Part shown: in pieces, positions 79 through 6,072 of the stretch
Layout: each line of letters begins with the position of its first letter
Numbering within the stretch: position 1 is the stretch's first letter
Assembly (NCBI GenBank): GCA_934438035.1
Contig: CAKSBK010000069.1
Span: forward strand, 1 to 6,072
Reading direction: 5' to 3'
Source of the DNA: an uncultured Christensenellaceae bacterium
Lineage (GTDB): Bacteria; Bacillota; Clostridia; Christensenellales; Christensenellaceae
DNA length: 6,072 nt
Notes under the pieces: generated by a model
Told to the model about the DNA's origin: nothing
Databases searched by the model: none
What the model saw: only the letters and a program-made list of their open reading frames with translations
Position numbers and translations under genes: made by a program

Positions 79-273
79 ATGGCATATACGAAAATTTGTC
101 CCGTTTGCGGGAAGCATATATTCAAAGAACCTTTTGAAGAATGTCCTATTTGCAATTGGCAAAATGATGAATATCAAGAAGAAAGACCGGATAAAGGGGG
201 AACAGGCTGGTGTAATACTATGTCCTTAAATGAAGCAAGAGAAGCCTATAAAAACGGCAAAGAAATCAACTAA
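79..273 (+). CDS. Small cysteine-rich CPCC-family protein
   Basis: A 64-residue protein with two CPxC knuckles: CPVCG at residues 7-11 and CPIC at 22-25. A WQNDEYQ segment follows, then a GGTGW turn and an NEAREAYKNG tail. This order (CPxCG, CPxCxW, D-x-Q, GG, SL-x-EAR) is that of the Cys_rich_CPCC family, although the signature CPCC is CPVC here. Four cysteines probably bind one zinc ion. Members are soluble, small and of unknown biochemical role. Some occur in arrays of small accessory or immunity-like genes, which fits this setting but does not prove it. The start is fixed by AAAGGAG at 62-68, ten bases before ATG. The gene sits between repeat A and repeat B. Confidence 0.85.
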   Translation: MAYTKICPVCGKHIFKEPFEECPICNWQNDEYQEERPDKGGTGWCNTMSLNEAREAYKNGKEIN

Positions 274-329
274 AAATTCAATATAAATCAGACACAACTT
301 TTTAAAGAGTTAAAAGGAGTATCACTTTG
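271..329 (+). repeat. Intergenic repeat B, copy 1 (leader of the 66-residue gene)
   Basis: It runs from the TAA stop of the CPCC gene to the TTG start of the next gene. It aligns with 525-582 with few mismatches and one single-base indel, including an unbroken shared block covering ACAACTTTTTAAAGAGTT and the ribosome site AAAAGGAG (312-319). The similarity continues into the coding region to about base 405. A shorter relative of its first part occurs at 961-997. Confidence 0.85.
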
Positions 330-527
330 AAAGAAATGGAAAATAAAAAACCAGATTATTATGGTGATGAAGATAGTCCTATTCTTGGTTGTATTAACCA
401 ACCAGAAACAGGAAGTAAATACAGAATAAGAGATTTAGACAAGTATTGTAAGAGAGAAGAAGCAAAAGGCAGAACCTTTGCTGATATAAAAGCAAGTGGC
501 GAATTAGAACAGTTTAGAATTAAGTAA
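327..527 (+). CDS. Small PDYYG-motif protein, paralogue 1 (TTG start)
   Basis: A 66-residue protein of unknown function. Residues 9-27 (PDYYGDEDSPILGCINQPE) match the same positions of the 44-residue neighbour almost exactly. After that the two proteins diverge: this one continues with a basic segment and a DLDKYCKREEAKGRTFADIK helix-like tail. The TTG start is supported in two ways. It lies seven bases after AAAAGGAG, exactly as ATG does in the paralogue (TTTG against TATG in otherwise matching DNA), and it gives both proteins the same distance to the shared motif. An internal ATG at 336 is the alternative. No signal peptide or membrane segment is seen. It probably shares a transcript with its neighbours, as no terminator lies between them. 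Confidence 0.7.
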   Translation: MKEMENKKPDYYGDEDSPILGCINQPETGSKYRIRDLDKYCKREEAKGRTFADIKASGELEQFRIK

Positions 528-582
528 AAATCCAATATAATCAAACACAACTTTTTAAAGAGTTAAAAGGAGTATAACTATG
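525..582 (+). repeat. Intergenic repeat B, copy 2 (leader of the 44-residue gene)
   Basis: It begins at the TAA of the 66-residue gene and ends in the ATG of the next gene. It is nearly identical to 271-329, and AAAAGGAG sits at 565-572 with the same seven-base spacing to the start codon. Both stop-to-start spacers being the same suggests tandem duplication of a leader plus gene unit. Confidence 0.85.
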
Positions 583-714
583 AACGAAAAGGGGTTTGTA
601 AAACCAGATTATTATGGTGAAGAAGATAGTCCTATTCTTGCTTGTATCAATCACCCGGAAGAATTTGTTGCTAATTGGAATAACCTAACAGAACAACACC
701 AAAGGCTTAATTAA
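580..714 (+). CDS. Small PDYYG-motif protein, paralogue 2
   Basis: A 44-residue protein that starts MNEKGFVKPDYYGEEDSPIL and ends in QRLN before TAA. Residues 9-27 are nearly the same as in the 66-residue gene on its left, whereas the remaining 17 residues (EFVANWNNLTEQHQRLN from residue 28) are unrelated. The final codons lie inside repeat A. This shows that the unit's 3' boundary is the same as that of the gene inferred to end at base 7. The ATG is preceded at seven bases by AAAAGGAG. I do not recognise the family. It may be either the complete short form or a truncated version of a longer relative. The duplicated 5' end and the strong ribosome site argue that it is expressed. Confidence 0.65.
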   Translation: MNEKGFVKPDYYGEEDSPILACINHPEEFVANWNNLTEQHQRLN

Positions 715-764
715 TCATTGGGAGAAAGAAATAAATACCGCTAATAAGATTATCAAATCAGCAA
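708..764 (+). repeat. Intergenic repeat A, copy 2
   Basis: The second copy of the 57-base repeat found at 1-57, one mismatch apart. It spans the end of the 44-residue gene and runs towards the 56-residue gene. After base 764 the two copies differ, and each leads to a different gene with its own ribosome site. Confidence 0.85.
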
Positions 765-792
765 GACTTGAATTAGAAAGGAGAAATAATCA

Positions 793-963
793 ATGAGAAA
801 ATTAACGGATTTTGCTATAAATTCTATAATAGACGAACTTGAAGAAAGATATGAGGAAGCTAAAAAGGAGGTTGAAGCAGACCCGACTAATGAGTATAAG
901 CAATCTATGTATGTTGCTTTTTTACAAGTTCACGAAATTATAGAAGATAGAATAGACCTATAA
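793..963 (+). CDS. Small charged helical protein of unknown function
   Basis: A 56-residue protein, starting MRKLTDFAINSIIDELEERY and ending HEIIEDRIDL. The sequence is rich in Glu, Lys and Ile, and two amphipathic helices (about residues 6-29 and 33-54) separated by a DPTN turn (30-33) can be read from the pattern. The second helix contains QSMYVAFLQVHEIIEDR. GAAAGGAG (776-783) lies nine bases before ATG. No known domain is recognised; a helical-hairpin partner or antitoxin-like protein is possible but unproven. It is the last gene of the repeat-linked array and is followed by a degenerate repeat B and the array terminator. It occupies the same slot (A, cargo, B) as the CPCC gene. Confidence 0.7.
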   Translation: MRKLTDFAINSIIDELEERYEEAKKEVEADPTNEYKQSMYVAFLQVHEIIEDRIDL

Positions 964-997
964 AACCAAATATAAACACCAAAAACTTTAAGAGTTA
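961..997 (+). repeat. Degenerate repeat B, copy 3
   Basis: After the TAA of the 56-residue gene the DNA reads TAAAACCAAATATAAACACC, then AAAAACTTTAAGAGTTAA. This aligns with the first part of the spacers at 271 and 525 (TAAAAATCCAATATAATCA, then ACAACTTTTTAAAGAGTTAA) with small gaps. The copy has no ribosome site; instead its end forms the left arm of the terminator hairpin. Confidence 0.6.
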
Positions 998-1055
998 ATC
1001 AGAGAAGCTTACTTATTAGCAGAAGTAATAAAACTGATTAACTCTTTTTATTTTG
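990..1055 (+). terminator. Rho-independent terminator of the small-gene array
   Basis: A perfect 13-bp stem is formed by AAGAGTTAATCAG (990-1002) and CTGATTAACTCTT (1034-1046). Inside the 31-base loop a smaller TTACTT/AAGTAA stem can form. The right arm runs into TTTTTATTTTG. It closes the small-gene array on the plus strand. Confidence 0.8.
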
Positions 1056-1135
1056 TCTTTTTACGGAAGAGACGATAAATAACAACTGAATAAAGGAACG
1101 GCAAGCACGCCGTAACTTATAAAAGTGAAATATTT

Positions 1136-1222
1136 ATGGAAGAAAATAAAAATCAAGGTGTAACTGATAATTCTGCTAATGAACAAACCGAACGGCAGAG
1201 CGAACAAAGTCTATGGTGTTGA
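1136..1222 (+). pseudogene. 28-residue ORF, possible truncated gene start
   Basis: ATG is followed by 27 codons giving a hydrophilic, Asn/Gln/Glu-rich peptide (MEENKNQGVTDNSANEQTER, then QSEQSLWC), then TGA. A weak AAGTGA lies upstream. A short hairpin (ACGGC/GCCGT at about 1099-1114) sits before it. The composition resembles the disordered N-terminus of larger mobile-element proteins, so it may be the stump of a deleted gene. Its 3' end overlaps the -35 box of the next operon. No function can be assigned, and it could be non-coding. The rest of the 964-1279 stretch holds the terminator, this ORF and the promoter only. Confidence 0.3.
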
Positions 1223-1247
1223 TAATGTAACTACACGATGCTATATT
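1219..1247 (+). promoter_or_regulatory. Sigma-A type promoter for the DUF2442-RHH operon
   Basis: TTGATA (1219-1224) and TATATT (1242-1247) are separated by 17 bases, with an extended -10 TG at 1239-1240. Transcription would start near 1254, leaving a leader of about 26 bases before the ATG at 1280. This excludes the upstream in-frame ATG at 1238 as the translation start, since it would precede the -10 box. Confidence 0.7.
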
Positions 1248-1279
1248 ATATACAGAAGTTAAACAAAGGAGATAAATCA

Positions 1280-1579
1280 ATGCCAAATTGTGAAATGCCG
1301 CCGGAAGTAAAAGAATATTTTGATAACGGCTGTCGCACTATTACCAAAGTTGTAGCCAATGATGACTATACCTTAACGCTTACATTTGATAACGGCGAAG
1401 TAAAGCTTTATGATATGAAACCCTTTCTCTATACTAATGCTTACAGAAAATTAAATGATATATCCTTTTTTAATACAGCACATATAGTATTGGATTATAC
1501 TGTCGGCTGGAATGATGAAATTGATATTTGTCCTGATAGTGCCTATCAAGATAGTATACCCTATAATGAGGTAGTATAA
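1280..1579 (+). CDS. DUF2442 domain protein
   Basis: A 99-residue protein from the ATG chosen here, which lies eight bases after AAAGGAG (1265-1271) and downstream of the promoter. A longer frame from 1238 has no ribosome site. Residues about 19-80 show the DUF2442 pattern: ITKVVANDDYTLTLTFDNGE, then VKLYDMKPFL, a ...FFNTAHIV strand, and an acidic WNDEIDICPDSAY end. The family is a small mostly-beta fold of unknown biochemical role, usually encoded in short operons in accessory DNA. The stop codon overlaps the start of the ribbon-helix-helix gene, so the two are translated together. A regulatory or toxin-antitoxin-like partnership is inference. Confidence 0.8.
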   Translation: MPNCEMPPEVKEYFDNGCRTITKVVANDDYTLTLTFDNGEVKLYDMKPFLYTNAYRKLNDISFFNTAHIVLDYTVGWNDEIDICPDSAYQDSIPYNEVV

Positions 1580-1734
1580 TGGCAGCAAAGACGCAACTAC
1601 TTCAACTTAGGCTTAGTGTAGAAGAAAAGGAACTGATACAGCAGCAGGCGGACAAGCTCGGCTTATCAATGGCAAGATATTTAGTAATGCTTGCTTTAAA
1701 GGATAAGCAAAAAGAAGATAAAAATACAATCTAA
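1579..1734 (+). CDS. Ribbon-helix-helix DNA-binding protein
   Basis: A 51-residue protein. The layout fits the Arc/CopG/MobC ribbon-helix-helix fold: a beta-strand TQLLQLRLS (residues 5-13), helix 1 EEKELIQQQADKLG (15-28), the LS turn, helix 2 MARYLVMLALKD (31-42), and a short charged tail. Such proteins bind DNA as dimers and act as antitoxins, operon autorepressors or mobilisation accessory factors. The start shares one base with the stop of the DUF2442 gene (TAATG), indicating translational coupling. It probably represses its own promoter at 1219-1247, as many such proteins do, but no clear operator was identified. No relaxase or toxin gene of a known family is visible next to it. Confidence 0.75.
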   Translation: MAAKTQLLQLRLSVEEKELIQQQADKLGLSMARYLVMLALKDKQKEDKNTI

Positions 1735-1794
1735 TATTTTAGAAAAAATTCCGCCACAATGCTTAAAAAGGCGGTTATAATGGGAGAAATAAAT

Positions 1795-1819
1795 GTTCGA
1801 CTTCCCCTCGCCTCCGCCA
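1795..1819 (+). other. tRNA/tmRNA 3'-end-like segment, possible attachment-site remnant
   Basis: The segment starts GTTCGACTTCCCC and ends CGCCTCCGCCA. This is the shape of a T-loop (TTCGACT), T-stem 3' strand, seven-base acceptor strand, discriminator G and CCA. One extra T makes the loop fit imperfect. Nothing upstream supplies the rest of a tRNA or tmRNA, so it is not a functional RNA gene. Integrating elements commonly carry such a 3'-end fragment at one border. It sits where the AT-rich accessory stretch ends, which supports but does not prove that reading. Confidence 0.35.
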
Positions 1820-1827
1820 AAACGTAA

Positions 1828-1853
1828 AAACACCGCATTGTTATGCGGTGTTT
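1828..1853 (+). terminator. Perfect hairpin, probable terminator after the RHH gene
   Basis: AAACACCGCA (1828-1837) and TGCGGTGTTT (1844-1853) form a perfect 10-bp stem with a six-base TTGTTA loop. The plus-strand tail is TTTCTCTGTTTG. Read on the minus strand the stem is followed by five T residues, so it may work in both directions. A weaker CCGCC/GGCGG stem lies at 1751-1774. Confidence 0.65.
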
Positions 1854-1915
1854 CTCTGTTTGTACACGATTTTTTAAAAAGTATTTTATACCTAAACTTT
1901 TGAAAATCATTTCAT

Positions 1916-1967
1916 AAAAAACACTTTTAAGCATCTCGAATTTCGAAATCCATTAAAAGCGTTTTTT
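1916..1967 (-). terminator. Long AT-rich hairpin, candidate minus-strand terminator
   Basis: AAAAAACACTTTTAA (1916-1930) and TTAAAAGCGTTTTTT (1953-1967) are inverted repeats with one mismatch, which becomes a G-U pair in minus-strand RNA. That RNA would have a 15-bp stem ending in six U residues. It is the first terminator-like structure downstream of the Thg1-like gene, about 310 bases past its stop. The loop holds the palindrome ATTTCGAAAT. The right arm is followed directly by the palindrome GGGTACCC (1968-1975). It could equally be a small dispersed repeat. Confidence 0.4.
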
Positions 1968-1975
1968 GGGTACCC

Positions 1976-2275
1976 TACTCTCCTCCATACAATGCGGCCT
2001 TTTGACTTTCTCGTCATAGCCGTTCTCATATAATGACGCACAGTTCCGCAAATATTCGCTGTTATTAATAATAAGCAGGTATTACGCGCCAAAAAAAACA
2101 TCTTAACCGCATAATTCGGATAATCTTTAGACCACGGCGCTTCTTAAACGGTCATGCCCTCGCAAAAGCCATCGGCATATGCGCAGCCTGCAAAGTCTTT
2201 AAAAACATCTGCCTGCATAAAGCACGCTTATGGTGTTTTTTATTTAACTCAAGCTGAGCCTTTGATTGTTAGCTA
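1976..2275. other. Spacer without a convincing gene
   Basis: Only short frames without ribosome sites are present. A minus-strand frame from ATG at 2218 to a TAA at 2144 gives 24 residues, and it continues in frame past that stop with protein-like codons (EAPWSKDYPNYAVKMFF). This might be a decayed gene end, but the evidence is thin. A GCTAT-T-ATAGC palindrome overlaps the stop of the Thg1-like gene (2272-2282). Nothing else is seen. Confidence 0.4.
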
Positions 2276-3028
2276 TTATAGCATTTTCGAGATAAATTCG
2301 GCATACTCCTCCCTGAGCGGAATCTCGAAATCCGCCTTGAGCGCACGTCTTTGCGCAGTTTTCGTTTCACCCGTAACAGGATTATAACCCTGCTTGATAA
2401 ACTTATCCCAATAGACGCCAATTCCGTATTTCTGCCAGCTTGGCAGCTTATCGAAGTTAATCCCGTTCTGAAAAAGCAGCTCATTTTTGAAAGTGGCTGA
2501 CCTGCCTTCAAGCATCTTTGCAGCCTCGGTAACGCTCATGCCCTGCTTTCGCAGCGTCCAATAGCAATGTGAATTCAAAGAGTTGCGATGCGCGTCCTCC
2601 TGTCTCCACAGGAAGTAATCCTGCACACGCTCTATCGTCGGAAGCGGTACCATCCTGCAGTCAAATATTGCCTGCCGTCCCAGCTGCATTGAGAAGGCTG
2701 CGCTGGCTACGCCCGCCAACAGTGAGTTATACTTCCTGACTTTGCGTCCAAAATTTTTCTCTTCCGGATGGAACAGCAGGGATATTTCATCGCTTTCGGT
2801 ATAACCGTAAACGACGCGGAAACCGTAATTCATAAGCGCCTTTACGGTCTCTATCATCATGTCCCGGAAACGCTCGTCAAACGGAGCCTCGAAACGGCAT
2901 ATCTCCTTCGTCATACGGGTAAAGCAATTGCCGTCCAAACGAGCAACAAGATAAAGTTCCGGCAGAAGCACCTGGTCAAGAGATTCCTCGTATACTCGCA
3001 TTTTTGCGTCAAGCTCGTCGAAATTCAT
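2276..3028 (-). CDS. Thg1-like protein (tRNA 5'-end 3'-5' nucleotidyltransferase)
   Basis: A 250-residue soluble protein of the Thg1/TLP family, which adds nucleotides to RNA 5' ends in the 3'-5' direction. Eukaryotic Thg1 adds G-1 to tRNA-His; bacterial TLPs mainly repair 5'-truncated tRNAs. The metal-binding palm motifs are present: ARLDGNCFTR (D32) and GYTESDEISLLF (D80, E81). They are followed by the FGRKVRKYNS...AGVASAAF helix (93-112) and the family's RQEDAHRNSLNSHCYW segment (142-157), equivalent to the HINNLYN region of eukaryotic enzymes. The length is normal and no key residue is missing. GGAGGGA (3036-3042) lies seven bases before ATG, inside the kinase gene, whose TAA directly abuts this start. 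That linkage to a 5'-kinase suggests repair of cleaved RNA rather than tRNA-His maturation. Confidence 0.92.
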   Translation of the reverse strand: MNFDELDAKMRVYEESLDQVLLPELYLVARLDGNCFTRMTKEICRFEAPFDERFRDMMIETVKALMNYGFRVVYGYTESDEISLLFHPEEKNFGRKVRKYNSLLAGVASAAFSMQLGRQAIFDCRMVPLPTIERVQDYFLWRQEDAHRNSLNSHCYWTLRKQGMSVTEAAKMLEGRSATFKNELLFQNGINFDKLPSWQKYGIGVYWDKFIKQGYNPVTGETKTAQRRALKADFEIPLREEYAEFISKML

Positions 3029-3493
3029 TTATGCTTCCCTCCATTCCGATATTATCATATCCGTTCCGTCGTTTGCAACAAAATACAGCTCATCAAAGCC
3101 CTCGGAATAACTCGGAAGCTCCAAACGGTTTTGGGTAGCCGCAATTGCCTTTTCCGGTATCCTTTCCTTCCCTTCCCGAGTATTATTCCGTTTAATACAT
3201 TCCTTAAGGCGCGACTGCATGAAATATCCGATAATGCGGTAGCCGTTTTCTTTTGCAGGAAGAATGTAACGCGCCCTGTCTTCACGGGTTGGATTGGTAT
3301 TATCCGCCACATAGCTGCAGCCGGATTCATAGCACCGGTCAATCAACCGCTTTTCGTTATTTCTTGTTTTCAGCGTATCAAGATTGACGCGCTGAACGCC
3401 GGGCAAATAACGTGCGCAGAATAACGATTTGCCGCTTCCTTGGATTCCGATCATGATATAAACAGTTCCGGGCCCAATATCAATCATCTTCAT
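3029..3493 (-). CDS. Polynucleotide 5'-kinase-like P-loop protein
   Basis: A 154-residue single-domain protein (from ATG at 3493) like the kinase domain of PNKP and T4 polynucleotide kinase (AAA_33 type). It would transfer the ATP gamma-phosphate to a 5'-hydroxyl end of RNA or DNA. Walker A is GIQGSGKS (residues 16-23, K22). VNLDTLK holds the likely catalytic base D39, VADNTNPT (62-69) matches PNKP's IDNTNP, and a basic lid (CIKRNNTREGKERIP) and a LPSYSEGFDELYFV end follow. The usual Arg before the catalytic Asp (NRD) is Leu here. There is no phosphatase or ligase domain. Starts at TTG 3508 or ATG 3487 are also possible; none has a strong ribosome site, so translation is probably coupled to the upstream gene, which it overlaps by 14 bases. 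Confidence 0.85.
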   Translation of the reverse strand: MKMIDIGPGTVYIMIGIQGSGKSLFCARYLPGVQRVNLDTLKTRNNEKRLIDRCYESGCSYVADNTNPTREDRARYILPAKENGYRIIGYFMQSRLKECIKRNNTREGKERIPEKAIAATQNRLELPSYSEGFDELYFVANDGTDMIISEWREA

Positions 3494-3920
3494 AATACAA
3501 CAGTTCAATATCTCTGTAGTATTGCTCCATAGCCGTCCGGTCGCCCGCTTTCAGTCGGTTCAGTATCCGAGCATACTCTTCCACAGCTATCTTATCCTCC
3601 GCCTTGTAGCGAAACCATAAGCTTTGATACTCGCTTTCATAATCAAGCGATAATTCAATTACTCTTGGCTTAAATGTACGTGAAGGGCGAATGTTTTCTA
3701 TACAGTCAAGCGGCACCCATTCAAGCGAATAACTGCTTTTAAATCTGTTTAGACCCATTACGACAACCCTATTATTTTCAAGGTTCCTGCTTATATAAAC
3801 CTTCCTGCCTCCGGGGAAAACCGCCACACCGTATTTTGTTTCGCCATTTTCATCAATACGCTTCTTGACAATATTGCCGATAACGCAATACTTCATCATT
3901 CCTGTGTAATTAGACGCCAT
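3480..3920 (-). CDS. Conserved-looking protein of unknown function, first gene of the repair operon
   Basis: A 146-residue soluble protein that I do not recognise. The start at 3920 is set by AAAGGAGG (3927-3934) six bases upstream; a longer frame to 3965 would overlap the promoter region and lacks a ribosome site. Residues 8-90 read as a run of beta-strands (YCVIGNIVKKRI, YGVAVFPGGRKVYISRNL, RVVVMGLNRF, YSLEWVPLDCIE, FKPRVIELSL), suggesting a small beta-barrel. The C-terminal part is helical and acidic (AEDKIAVEEYARILNRLKAG, ending LLYYEDD). Many Arg and Lys residues in the barrel region would suit RNA binding, which is inference. As first gene of an operon with a 5'-kinase and a Thg1-like enzyme it may be a substrate-recognition or regulatory subunit. 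Confidence 0.75.
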   Translation of the reverse strand: MASNYTGMMKYCVIGNIVKKRIDENGETKYGVAVFPGGRKVYISRNLENNRVVVMGLNRFKSSYSLEWVPLDCIENIRPSRTFKPRVIELSLDYESEYQSLWFRYKAEDKIAVEEYARILNRLKAGDRTAMEQYYRDIELLYYEDD

Positions 3921-3946
3921 GAGAATCCTCCTTTCGGGTCTTTGAG

Positions 3947-4385: not shown

Positions 4386-5657
4386 TTAAATTATCACCCG
4401 CAATATAAACATGCCGTTTTCACAGCTAAACATGCAATTTCCGTTAAGCTTTTCTGCGGTATAGCATATGCTTTGCGTTCCGAAGCCGTGGTTTTCCGCG
4501 TCAGAAACAGGCATTCCGTCAATAAATTTAGGCGGCGTTTTATACGGGTTTTTAACGCATATCAATAGTTTTCCGCCTTTTTCGCCCATTTCAAGGCTTA
4601 TGCTTCGCTTGTTACTCTCAAGCTCGCACACGGCGTTTATCGCATTTTCAAGAGCGTTTGAAAGTATTTGAGTTATATCTACGTCGGTAATCAAAAGCTC
4701 CTTTGATATTCCGACATTAGCAAAAAAGCGGATATCTTTTTCCTCCATCATATTCTCGTAAAAGGATATTATTAGGTTTACCGTATCGTTTGAGGTATAT
4801 CTTTTTTTAACGGTTTTCGCCGCCGAATCTATAATTTCTTCAACATAGCTTTTTGCTTTTTCAACATCGCCGTCATTGAGAAGCGCCAAAATGCCGTTAA
4901 GAAAATGCCGCATGTCGTGCCGCATTATAGCTATTTTCTCCTCGCTTCTGCGTATAGTCTCAACTTCCTTTTGAGCTTGCTGCCACCTTATTATCATAAG
5001 CTTGTTTTTGGTTTCAATTTGCTCCGATTCCTCATGCTGCTTAAAATATACCACACAGAAAATAAGGTAAGACATGCAAAGCATAAAAGGCGCAAGCTCC
5101 GCAACCACACGATTTCCTGAATACAGTAAATCCGTATATACGGTAGCCGCATAATCAAATATATAATAAAAAACGGGAACAATCGAAAGGCAGATTATTA
5201 CTTTTCTCGGCTTAGACATAAGCTTGGAGACAGGCGGCGCAACAAAGCGCATAATAATCGGAAAAAACACCGCAATAGCCAAAATATACACTATATCCGA
5301 AACGTATTCCGGCAAATTCAAAAGCGCGGGGATTTCCGAAAGCCAGTTGCAGAGCTGACAGCATAAATATGCCGAGCTTACCGCCAAAACGGACTGAGAA
5401 AACGGTTTAGAATATATCAGCACTAAGATTAGCACGAGCGGAATATGCGTTAATAACGGATAAAGCACAAAAACTATCTCATAACCGTAAGCAAGGTCCA
5501 AAGCCAGCTGTAAAAACGCGTCCGCCGTAAAAAACAGCCCGAATATCGCGCAATTCTTTTTTCCGTAACGAATCCCCGAAAAGGAAGCGGAAACCAATAT
5601 TCCGAAAAGAAGCACAAGCGAATATCTTAATAAAGAGAGTATTTCAAAAAACATCAC
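4386..5657 (-). CDS. AgrC-like membrane sensor histidine kinase (GHKL, HPK10-type)
   Basis: A 423-residue kinase. The N-terminal half (about 1-205) is hydrophobic with six or so membrane segments, as in AgrC and related peptide sensors, and has no large external domain. A helical linker (206-240) follows. The phosphoacceptor box is AIMRHDMRHFLNGILALL with H247. The ATP-binding GHKL domain has the N-box ILSNALENAINA (331-342) and a short G-box HGFGTQSI (390-397), typical of the HATPase_c_5 group. It would phosphorylate the response regulator encoded just upstream. The start is GTG at 5657 (four-base GTGA overlap with the regulator's stop) or ATG at 5654; AAGGAG lies six or nine bases before them. 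The ligand is unknown, and no AgrB or AgrD-like gene is seen in the window. Confidence 0.88.
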   Translation of the reverse strand: MMFFEILSLLRYSLVLLFGILVSASFSGIRYGKKNCAIFGLFFTADAFLQLALDLAYGYEIVFVLYPLLTHIPLVLILVLIYSKPFSQSVLAVSSAYLCCQLCNWLSEIPALLNLPEYVSDIVYILAIAVFFPIIMRFVAPPVSKLMSKPRKVIICLSIVPVFYYIFDYAATVYTDLLYSGNRVVAELAPFMLCMSYLIFCVVYFKQHEESEQIETKNKLMIIRWQQAQKEVETIRRSEEKIAIMRHDMRHFLNGILALLNDGDVEKAKSYVEEIIDSAAKTVKKRYTSNDTVNLIISFYENMMEEKDIRFFANVGISKELLITDVDITQILSNALENAINAVCELESNKRSISLEMGEKGGKLLICVKNPYKTPPKFIDGMPVSDAENHGFGTQSICYTAEKLNGNCMFSCENGMFILRVII

Positions 5658-6072
5658 ACTTCGCTCTCCTTATTAAACATATTTGCAAAATATGCTTCCC
5701 TGAACGTCTTTCCGAGGCCGCGGGCAATCGGCACCCTGTCACCCATACGCATAATTATTTCCGCAGAGTTAAAATGATTCACCGCAGAAAAATTCACGAT
5801 ATAGCTTCTGTGACATTTAAAGAAGCAATCATAAACGCATAATTTTTCTTCAATATGCGTAAAAGTATCGAGCGCCTCTATGCATTTTCCGCCCTCAACC
5901 GTCAACCTTACTTTTCTGTTGCATGCTTCAACATATTCAATATCATTTACCGGCACGCTATGAAATCCGTATTGCGTACGAACGGTTATTTTAGGGGCGT
6001 TTTCGCTGAGAGCCTTGAAGCAATCATTTAAAACCCCGGCAAGCTTTTCATATTTAAGCGGCTTTAATATAT
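5654..6072 (-). CDS. LytTR-family response regulator, 5' end outside the window
   Basis: The frame is open to the right edge, so the protein is partial. The 138 visible residues begin ILKPLKYEKLAGVL, which is the conserved Lys-Pro end of a CheY-like receiver domain. The domain's earlier part, including the phosphorylated Asp, lies beyond the edge. The LytTR DNA-binding domain follows (about residues 27-131): KITVRTQYG, VNDIEYVEACNRKV, the hallmark FFKCHRSYIVNF (83-94) and VPIARGLGKTFREAY (113-127). An internal GTG at 5956 is not the real start, because receiver sequence continues upstream of it. It is an AgrA/VirR-type transcription factor acting with the kinase whose gene overlaps its stop. 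LytTR targets are usually direct repeats upstream of regulated promoters; none was identified here. Confidence 0.92.
   Translation of the reverse strand, partial: ILKPLKYEKLAGVLNDCFKALSENAPKITVRTQYGFHSVPVNDIEYVEACNRKVRLTVEGGKCIEALDTFTHIEEKLCVYDCFFKCHRSYIVNFSAVNHFNSAEIIMRMGDRVPIARGLGKTFREAYFANMFNKESEV

Follow-up and report, generated by a model that had tools for sequence, protein, structure and literature searches.

Genes of the locus

The 6,072-nucleotide stretch analysed here (the window; contig CAKSBK010000069.1 of assembly GCA_934438035.1, from an uncultured Christensenellaceae bacterium) carries three genes in direct succession on the minus strand: a small gene that we call gene A, a gene for a polynucleotide kinase (PNK)-family protein, and a gene for a Thg1-like protein. 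An initial annotation had placed these genes at 2276-3920 and read them as a candidate RNA 5′-end repair system. The range is exact, three abutting minus-strand genes are evident from the sequence and its open reading frames, and the two junctions to which that annotation pointed, a TAAATG abutment (3031-3026) and a gene overlap, are both present. The features are:

3927..3931, minus strand: GGAGG ribosome-binding site of gene A (sequence)
3480..3920, minus strand: gene A, 146 amino acids, ATG start; predicted SH3-like barrel with a helical tail (AF2 model, pLDDT 81.4)
3029..3493, minus strand: PNKP-like P-loop kinase, 154 amino acids, with the ATG at 3493 assumed as the start
3425..3448, minus strand: Walker A motif of the kinase, residues 16-23, GIQGSGKS (alignment)
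3377..3379, minus strand: codon of the invariant kinase residue Asp39, likely the general base (alignment)
3026..3031, minus strand: TAAATG junction, the kinase stop followed immediately by the Thg1 start (sequence)
2276..3028, minus strand: Thg1-like protein, 250 amino acids, with PF04446 and PF14413 matches
2933..2935, minus strand: Asp32 codon of Thg1, invariant metal-binding carboxylate (human D29; alignment)
2885..2887, minus strand: codon of Thg1 residue Ala48, which takes the position of the activation lysine K43 of BtTLP (alignment)
2786..2791, minus strand: Asp80-Glu81 codons of Thg1, invariant metal-binding carboxylates (human D76, E77; alignment)

If the ATG at 3493 is used, the kinase gene overlaps gene A by 14 bases, and gene A probably shares the kinase transcript. 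Other possible kinase starts are an ATG at 3487 and a TTG at 3508. The three frames are genes rather than chance, as each has relatives in the protein database (76 for gene A, 1,559 for the kinase and 7,645 for Thg1; the best 120 were listed for each of the latter two).

The Thg1-like assignment of the initial annotation holds. Both the catalytic and the C-terminal Thg1 domains score over their cut-offs, PF04446 with 108.3 bits (E-value 3.4e-31, cut-off 29.2) and PF14413 with 63.4 bits (3e-17, cut-off 26.3), and among solved structures the family profile matches BtTLP of Bacillus thuringiensis best (4KGK, 1.1e-71). The metal-binding carboxylates D32, D80 and E81 align with human D29, D76 and E77 (numbering from PMC3701042) and are invariant across 17 alignment rows; the serine of the SDE motif is also kept. 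The transfer-site residues R30, K99 and R125, whose counterparts in ScThg1 are R27, K96 and R133 (roles from PMC3701042), are found in 120/120 of the listed close relatives (best 120 of 7,645). The protein is predicted to add nucleotides in the 3′-5′ direction.

The kinase was likewise correctly assigned to the polynucleotide kinase family. It matches PF13671 (AAA_33) over the cut-off (3e-14), and its best matches are polynucleotide kinases both by profile (PNKP, 2e-22) and by fold (PNKP, 19.0; Clostridium thermocellum PNK, 18.1). TIGR01663, the PNK-3′-phosphatase family, matches at 4.8e-13, yet with 48.3 of 502.8 bits, far under the cut-off for the two-domain enzyme, and profile scans found no phosphatase or ligase domain in what is a lone 154-amino-acid domain. 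G16, G21 and K22 of the Walker A motif are invariant, as is D39, which we take to be the general base from the example of PNKP. The protein is predicted to phosphorylate 5′-OH polynucleotides. A zeta toxin identity was also considered, and PF06414 gave 15 bits against a curated cut-off of 22.3.

Conservation of the pair and distribution of gene A

The kinase and Thg1 are a conserved gene pair. A PNK gene directly adjoins and is co-oriented with Thg1 at 8/9 cellular or plasmid loci, against 4/94 viral loci; the viral loci derive from the best 80 of 551 viral relatives and include near-duplicates, of which only L031 (a copy of L018) was set aside. Across ten Thg1 loci, obtained from draws of genomes at class and phylum level, from plasmid matches (3/20 matching plasmid records) and from one virus, the window kinase finds a homologue at nine (E-value 1.3e-20 or better), the exception being L019 of Thiodictyon. 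The hidden Markov models (HMMs) of PNK and RlaP applied to the loci were partly built from those same loci. At L022 and L023 the order is reversed, with Thg1 preceding PNK, and thus the association survives rearrangement. The Thg1 gene itself is rare, with matches in 4/391 genomes of the class draw and 3/398 of the phylum draw, the seed genome G006 being counted in both. For the closest relatives we used shared contig size as an indirect test: among the matches listed, 17 longest-contig sizes of at least 1,500 bases were common to Thg1 and kinase relatives (offset controls: mean 0.72, maximum 3). Equal size is no proof of the same contig, but these relatives stand out plainly against those of gene A, whose counts are given below. 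We consider it probable that the window holds a two-gene pair, of PNK family and Thg1-like, that heals broken 5′ ends of RNA, likely with GTP, and that gene A is a passenger.

Gene A has no match at an E-value of 0.1 in Pfam, NCBIfam, PHROGs or PADLOC, and its model, a five-strand barrel with three helices, suggests a weak likeness to SH3 domains. One could suppose, with the initial annotation, that all three genes form one system. The SH3-like barrel of gene A would then serve both enzymes as an RNA-binding or regulatory subunit; gene A does overlap and lead the kinase gene. The survey of neighbourhoods upheld the pair and not the trio, since the A-PNK-Thg1 order was seen at none of 13 gene A loci and none of 103 other Thg1 loci. 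No open frame at the 13 gene A loci (11 in genomes, L001-L011, and two viral, L012 and L013) matches the PNK or Thg1 profile within the covered flanks. These extend about 5.4-6 kb to either side at 7/13 loci and less far at the rest, with 58 bases covered downstream at L003 and 925 at L006. Conversely, the gene A profile is met at 0/103 Thg1 loci (104 less the duplicate L031), the scan at L014-L017, L022 and L023 reaching no farther than about 1.5 kb to either side. Ten of 11 genomes with gene A have no Thg1 match, and five of six with Thg1 have no gene A match; the exception in both cases is G006, where Thg1 is on a different contig and the gene A match has one stop inside as scored. Single absences of this kind are weak because the genomes are mostly drafts. 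Longest-contig sizes shared by the listed gene A relatives are at background, one with Thg1 (controls 0.47) and one with the kinase (controls 0.45). The neighbours of gene A relatives vary: by reading, ankyrin-like genes occur at L005, L006, L008 and L009 (those tested from L005 and L008 have no Pfam match), the L007 homologue is fused to ankyrin repeats, and a YpsA gene lies beside that of L012. Proximity to an RNA-repair gene elsewhere does count in favour of the trio, as RtcB neighbours gene A in G006 (contig C34, gene A at 923-1324 and RtcB at 2629-3675, about 1.3 kb apart, RtcB profile-confirmed) and in L008. At both loci (L006 1-2765; L008 1918-6402, RtcB by reading only) the homologue is one gene downstream of RtcB, and at L008 a DUF2828 gene precedes it. 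On balance, we regard a three-gene system as quite unlikely. Gene A is most likely a passenger or accessory gene from the accessory-gene pool that happens to lead the transcript.

Two other explanations concern the pair itself. The kinase could act on a small molecule, in the manner of a zeta toxin or a metabolite kinase, with the Thg1 linkage reflecting another pathway. We find this highly doubtful, given that its best profile and fold matches are polynucleotide kinases and that its conserved neighbour is an RNA polymerase with a known 5′-phosphate substrate (PMC2904730). Alternatively, the pair could mature tRNA-His by G-1 addition, or edit normal tRNA 5′ ends, rather than repair damage, and window Thg1 does carry H147, N149 and KNE (181-183) at the aligned human HINN and KNE. 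RNase P products already bear a 5′-phosphate, however, so the kinase would be idle in such a role, and a gene present in 4/391 genomes of the class draw (a count that includes the seed) is too rare to sit easily with it. The -1 position is, moreover, genome-encoded in bacteria (PMC2904730), and a role in tRNA-His maturation or editing appears very improbable.

Activation site and proposed repair route

Repair of broken RNA 5′ ends, the reading we favor, gains a specific prediction from one residue of the Thg1-like protein. At the activation site, where BtTLP has K43 and where two further solved relatives, the human and 5AXK proteins (the latter presumably from Methanosarcina), also align a lysine, window Thg1 has Ala48. 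The closest relatives agree: among the best 120 of 7,645, the residue is alanine in 111, threonine in six, valine in three and lysine in none. The ten cellular, plasmid and viral loci have A at five, S at one and K at four, and over 93 viral loci it is chiefly R (45) or K (31). In a FastTree phylogeny, window Thg1 falls inside a 26-leaf clade in which the residue is neutral in 22 and K or R in four. The lysine is not a domain-defining residue, and window Thg1 is therefore of the same family with a variant activation site. In BtTLP the lysine contacts ATP, and it has been called highly conserved, with a universal role expected (PMC3701042). The K43A mutant loses about ten-fold in ATP-dependent activation while its GTP-dependent activation is unchanged (PMC3701042). 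Since that mutant keeps activity with GTP and loses most of it with ATP, window Thg1 is predicted to begin repair with GTP, and by this analogy likely uses GTP, not ATP, for 5′-end activation.

We infer the following order of action. An RNase would cut and leave a 5′-OH on a shortened RNA; the kinase would phosphorylate this end; and the Thg1-like enzyme would activate the 5′-phosphate, likely with GTP, and restore the missing nucleotides 3′-to-5′ with the paired strand as template, in the way known for TLPs acting on tRNAs with truncated acceptor stems. Published TLP biochemistry points to 5′-truncated tRNA acceptor stems as the likeliest substrate. The product would be an end-repaired RNA, not a ligated one. 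The initial annotation had remarked on the lack of a ligase, and no RNA ligase gene was recognized among the window proteins. Its suggestion of sealing by RtcB or another ligase fares unevenly: RtcB joins 5′-OH ends (PMC7790460), which the kinase would remove, and is thus a poor candidate, whereas a classical ligase would fit better should sealing be needed. RtcB matches occur in 4/6 Thg1 genomes. At L030, a classical ligase (PF09414, 6.9e-11) lies 44 bases upstream of Thg1-PNK. Tentatively, it is possible that a kinase-coupled clade of bacterial Thg1 has lost the ATP-holding lysine, as a natural counterpart of K43A, and that guanylylation starts repair; GTP could then both activate the end and be the nucleotide added, in a ligase-free, GTP-driven repair of 5′-OH-broken tRNA acceptor stems. 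As far as the literature covered shows, in the parts consulted, two points are new: gene A is independent of the pair, and the activation lysine has been lost naturally.

Other Thg1 loci have further neighbours. WYL-domain genes flank the PNK-Thg1 pair at L015 and L026, on both sides in the latter (107-3628); WYL-domain proteins are regulators that sense ligands and are frequently found with defence systems. At L020 of Deinococcus, Hen1 and two RlaP genes follow the pair after two annotated genes, and at L019 of Thiodictyon an RlaP gene overlaps the end of Thg1. By an HMM made from these RlaP genes, an RlaP-like gene lies within about 3.4 kb at 6/103 Thg1 loci. It directly adjoins Thg1, with no PNK beside, at three (L019 8016-9774, L056 4243-5816 and L090 4995-6637), of which only L019 is confirmed by Pfam and the other two rest on the HMM. 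This adjacency hints at a rebuilding of both sides of an RNA break. No Thg1-RlaP link in print was found in the titles, abstracts and passages searched, which covered part of the RNA-repair literature.

Further genes lie elsewhere in the window. The plus-strand region 1-963 contains small genes whose leaders are repeated. A leader of 57 bases occurs at 1-57 and again at 708-764 (98% identical), and a unit of 135 bases occurs at 273-407 and 526-660 (83%). These repeats precede or overlap short open frames, one of which is of the CPCC cysteine-rich family. A DUF2442 gene and then a NikA/MobA-like mobilization gene follow at 1280-1734, also on the plus strand, and suggest that a mobile or formerly mobile stretch adjoins the repair pair. 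Upstream of gene A and on the same, minus strand, genes for a GHKL-type histidine kinase (PF14501) and a LytTR regulator (PF04397) occupy 4386-6070 and resemble an agr-type sensing pair.

Comparison with known systems

RNA-end healing genes near some Thg1 genes (L019, L020, L030) recall the Hen1/RlaP/RNA-ligase repair clusters (PMC7824862), although no such gene was recognized among the scanned window proteins. The same work, on jumbo phages, names Thg1 as a sporadic repair enzyme. The closest solved structures to the window kinase are the kinase domain of mammalian PNKP and C. thermocellum PNK; the window kinase is a lone domain. BtTLP, which repairs 5′-truncated tRNA in vitro (PMC3701042), shares with window Thg1 its family by profile, the metal carboxylates and the transfer-site residues. 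It differs in having K43 in place of Ala48 and in showing alignment gaps at HRNSLN...W and over some of the C-terminal stretch.

The association of PNK with Thg1 in bacteria, with a proposal of 5′-end repair, was published by Anantharaman, Iyer and Aravind in 2010 (PMC2904730). The window has the same arrangement, with PNK and Thg1 immediately next to each other in one orientation. It differs in that neither a MACRO nor an RNA ligase gene was recognized, that the unrelated gene A leads the pair, and that Thg1 is without the activation-site lysine, a point that the consulted passages of PMC2904730 do not mention. With gene A and RtcB removed from the model, follow-up can skip both, and from the naturally missing lysine it follows as a sharp prediction that GTP is preferred to ATP. 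The window is a further case of the known PNK-Thg1 pairing, and its stable kinase-Thg1 pair is compact enough for the 2010 proposal to be tested with two purified proteins.
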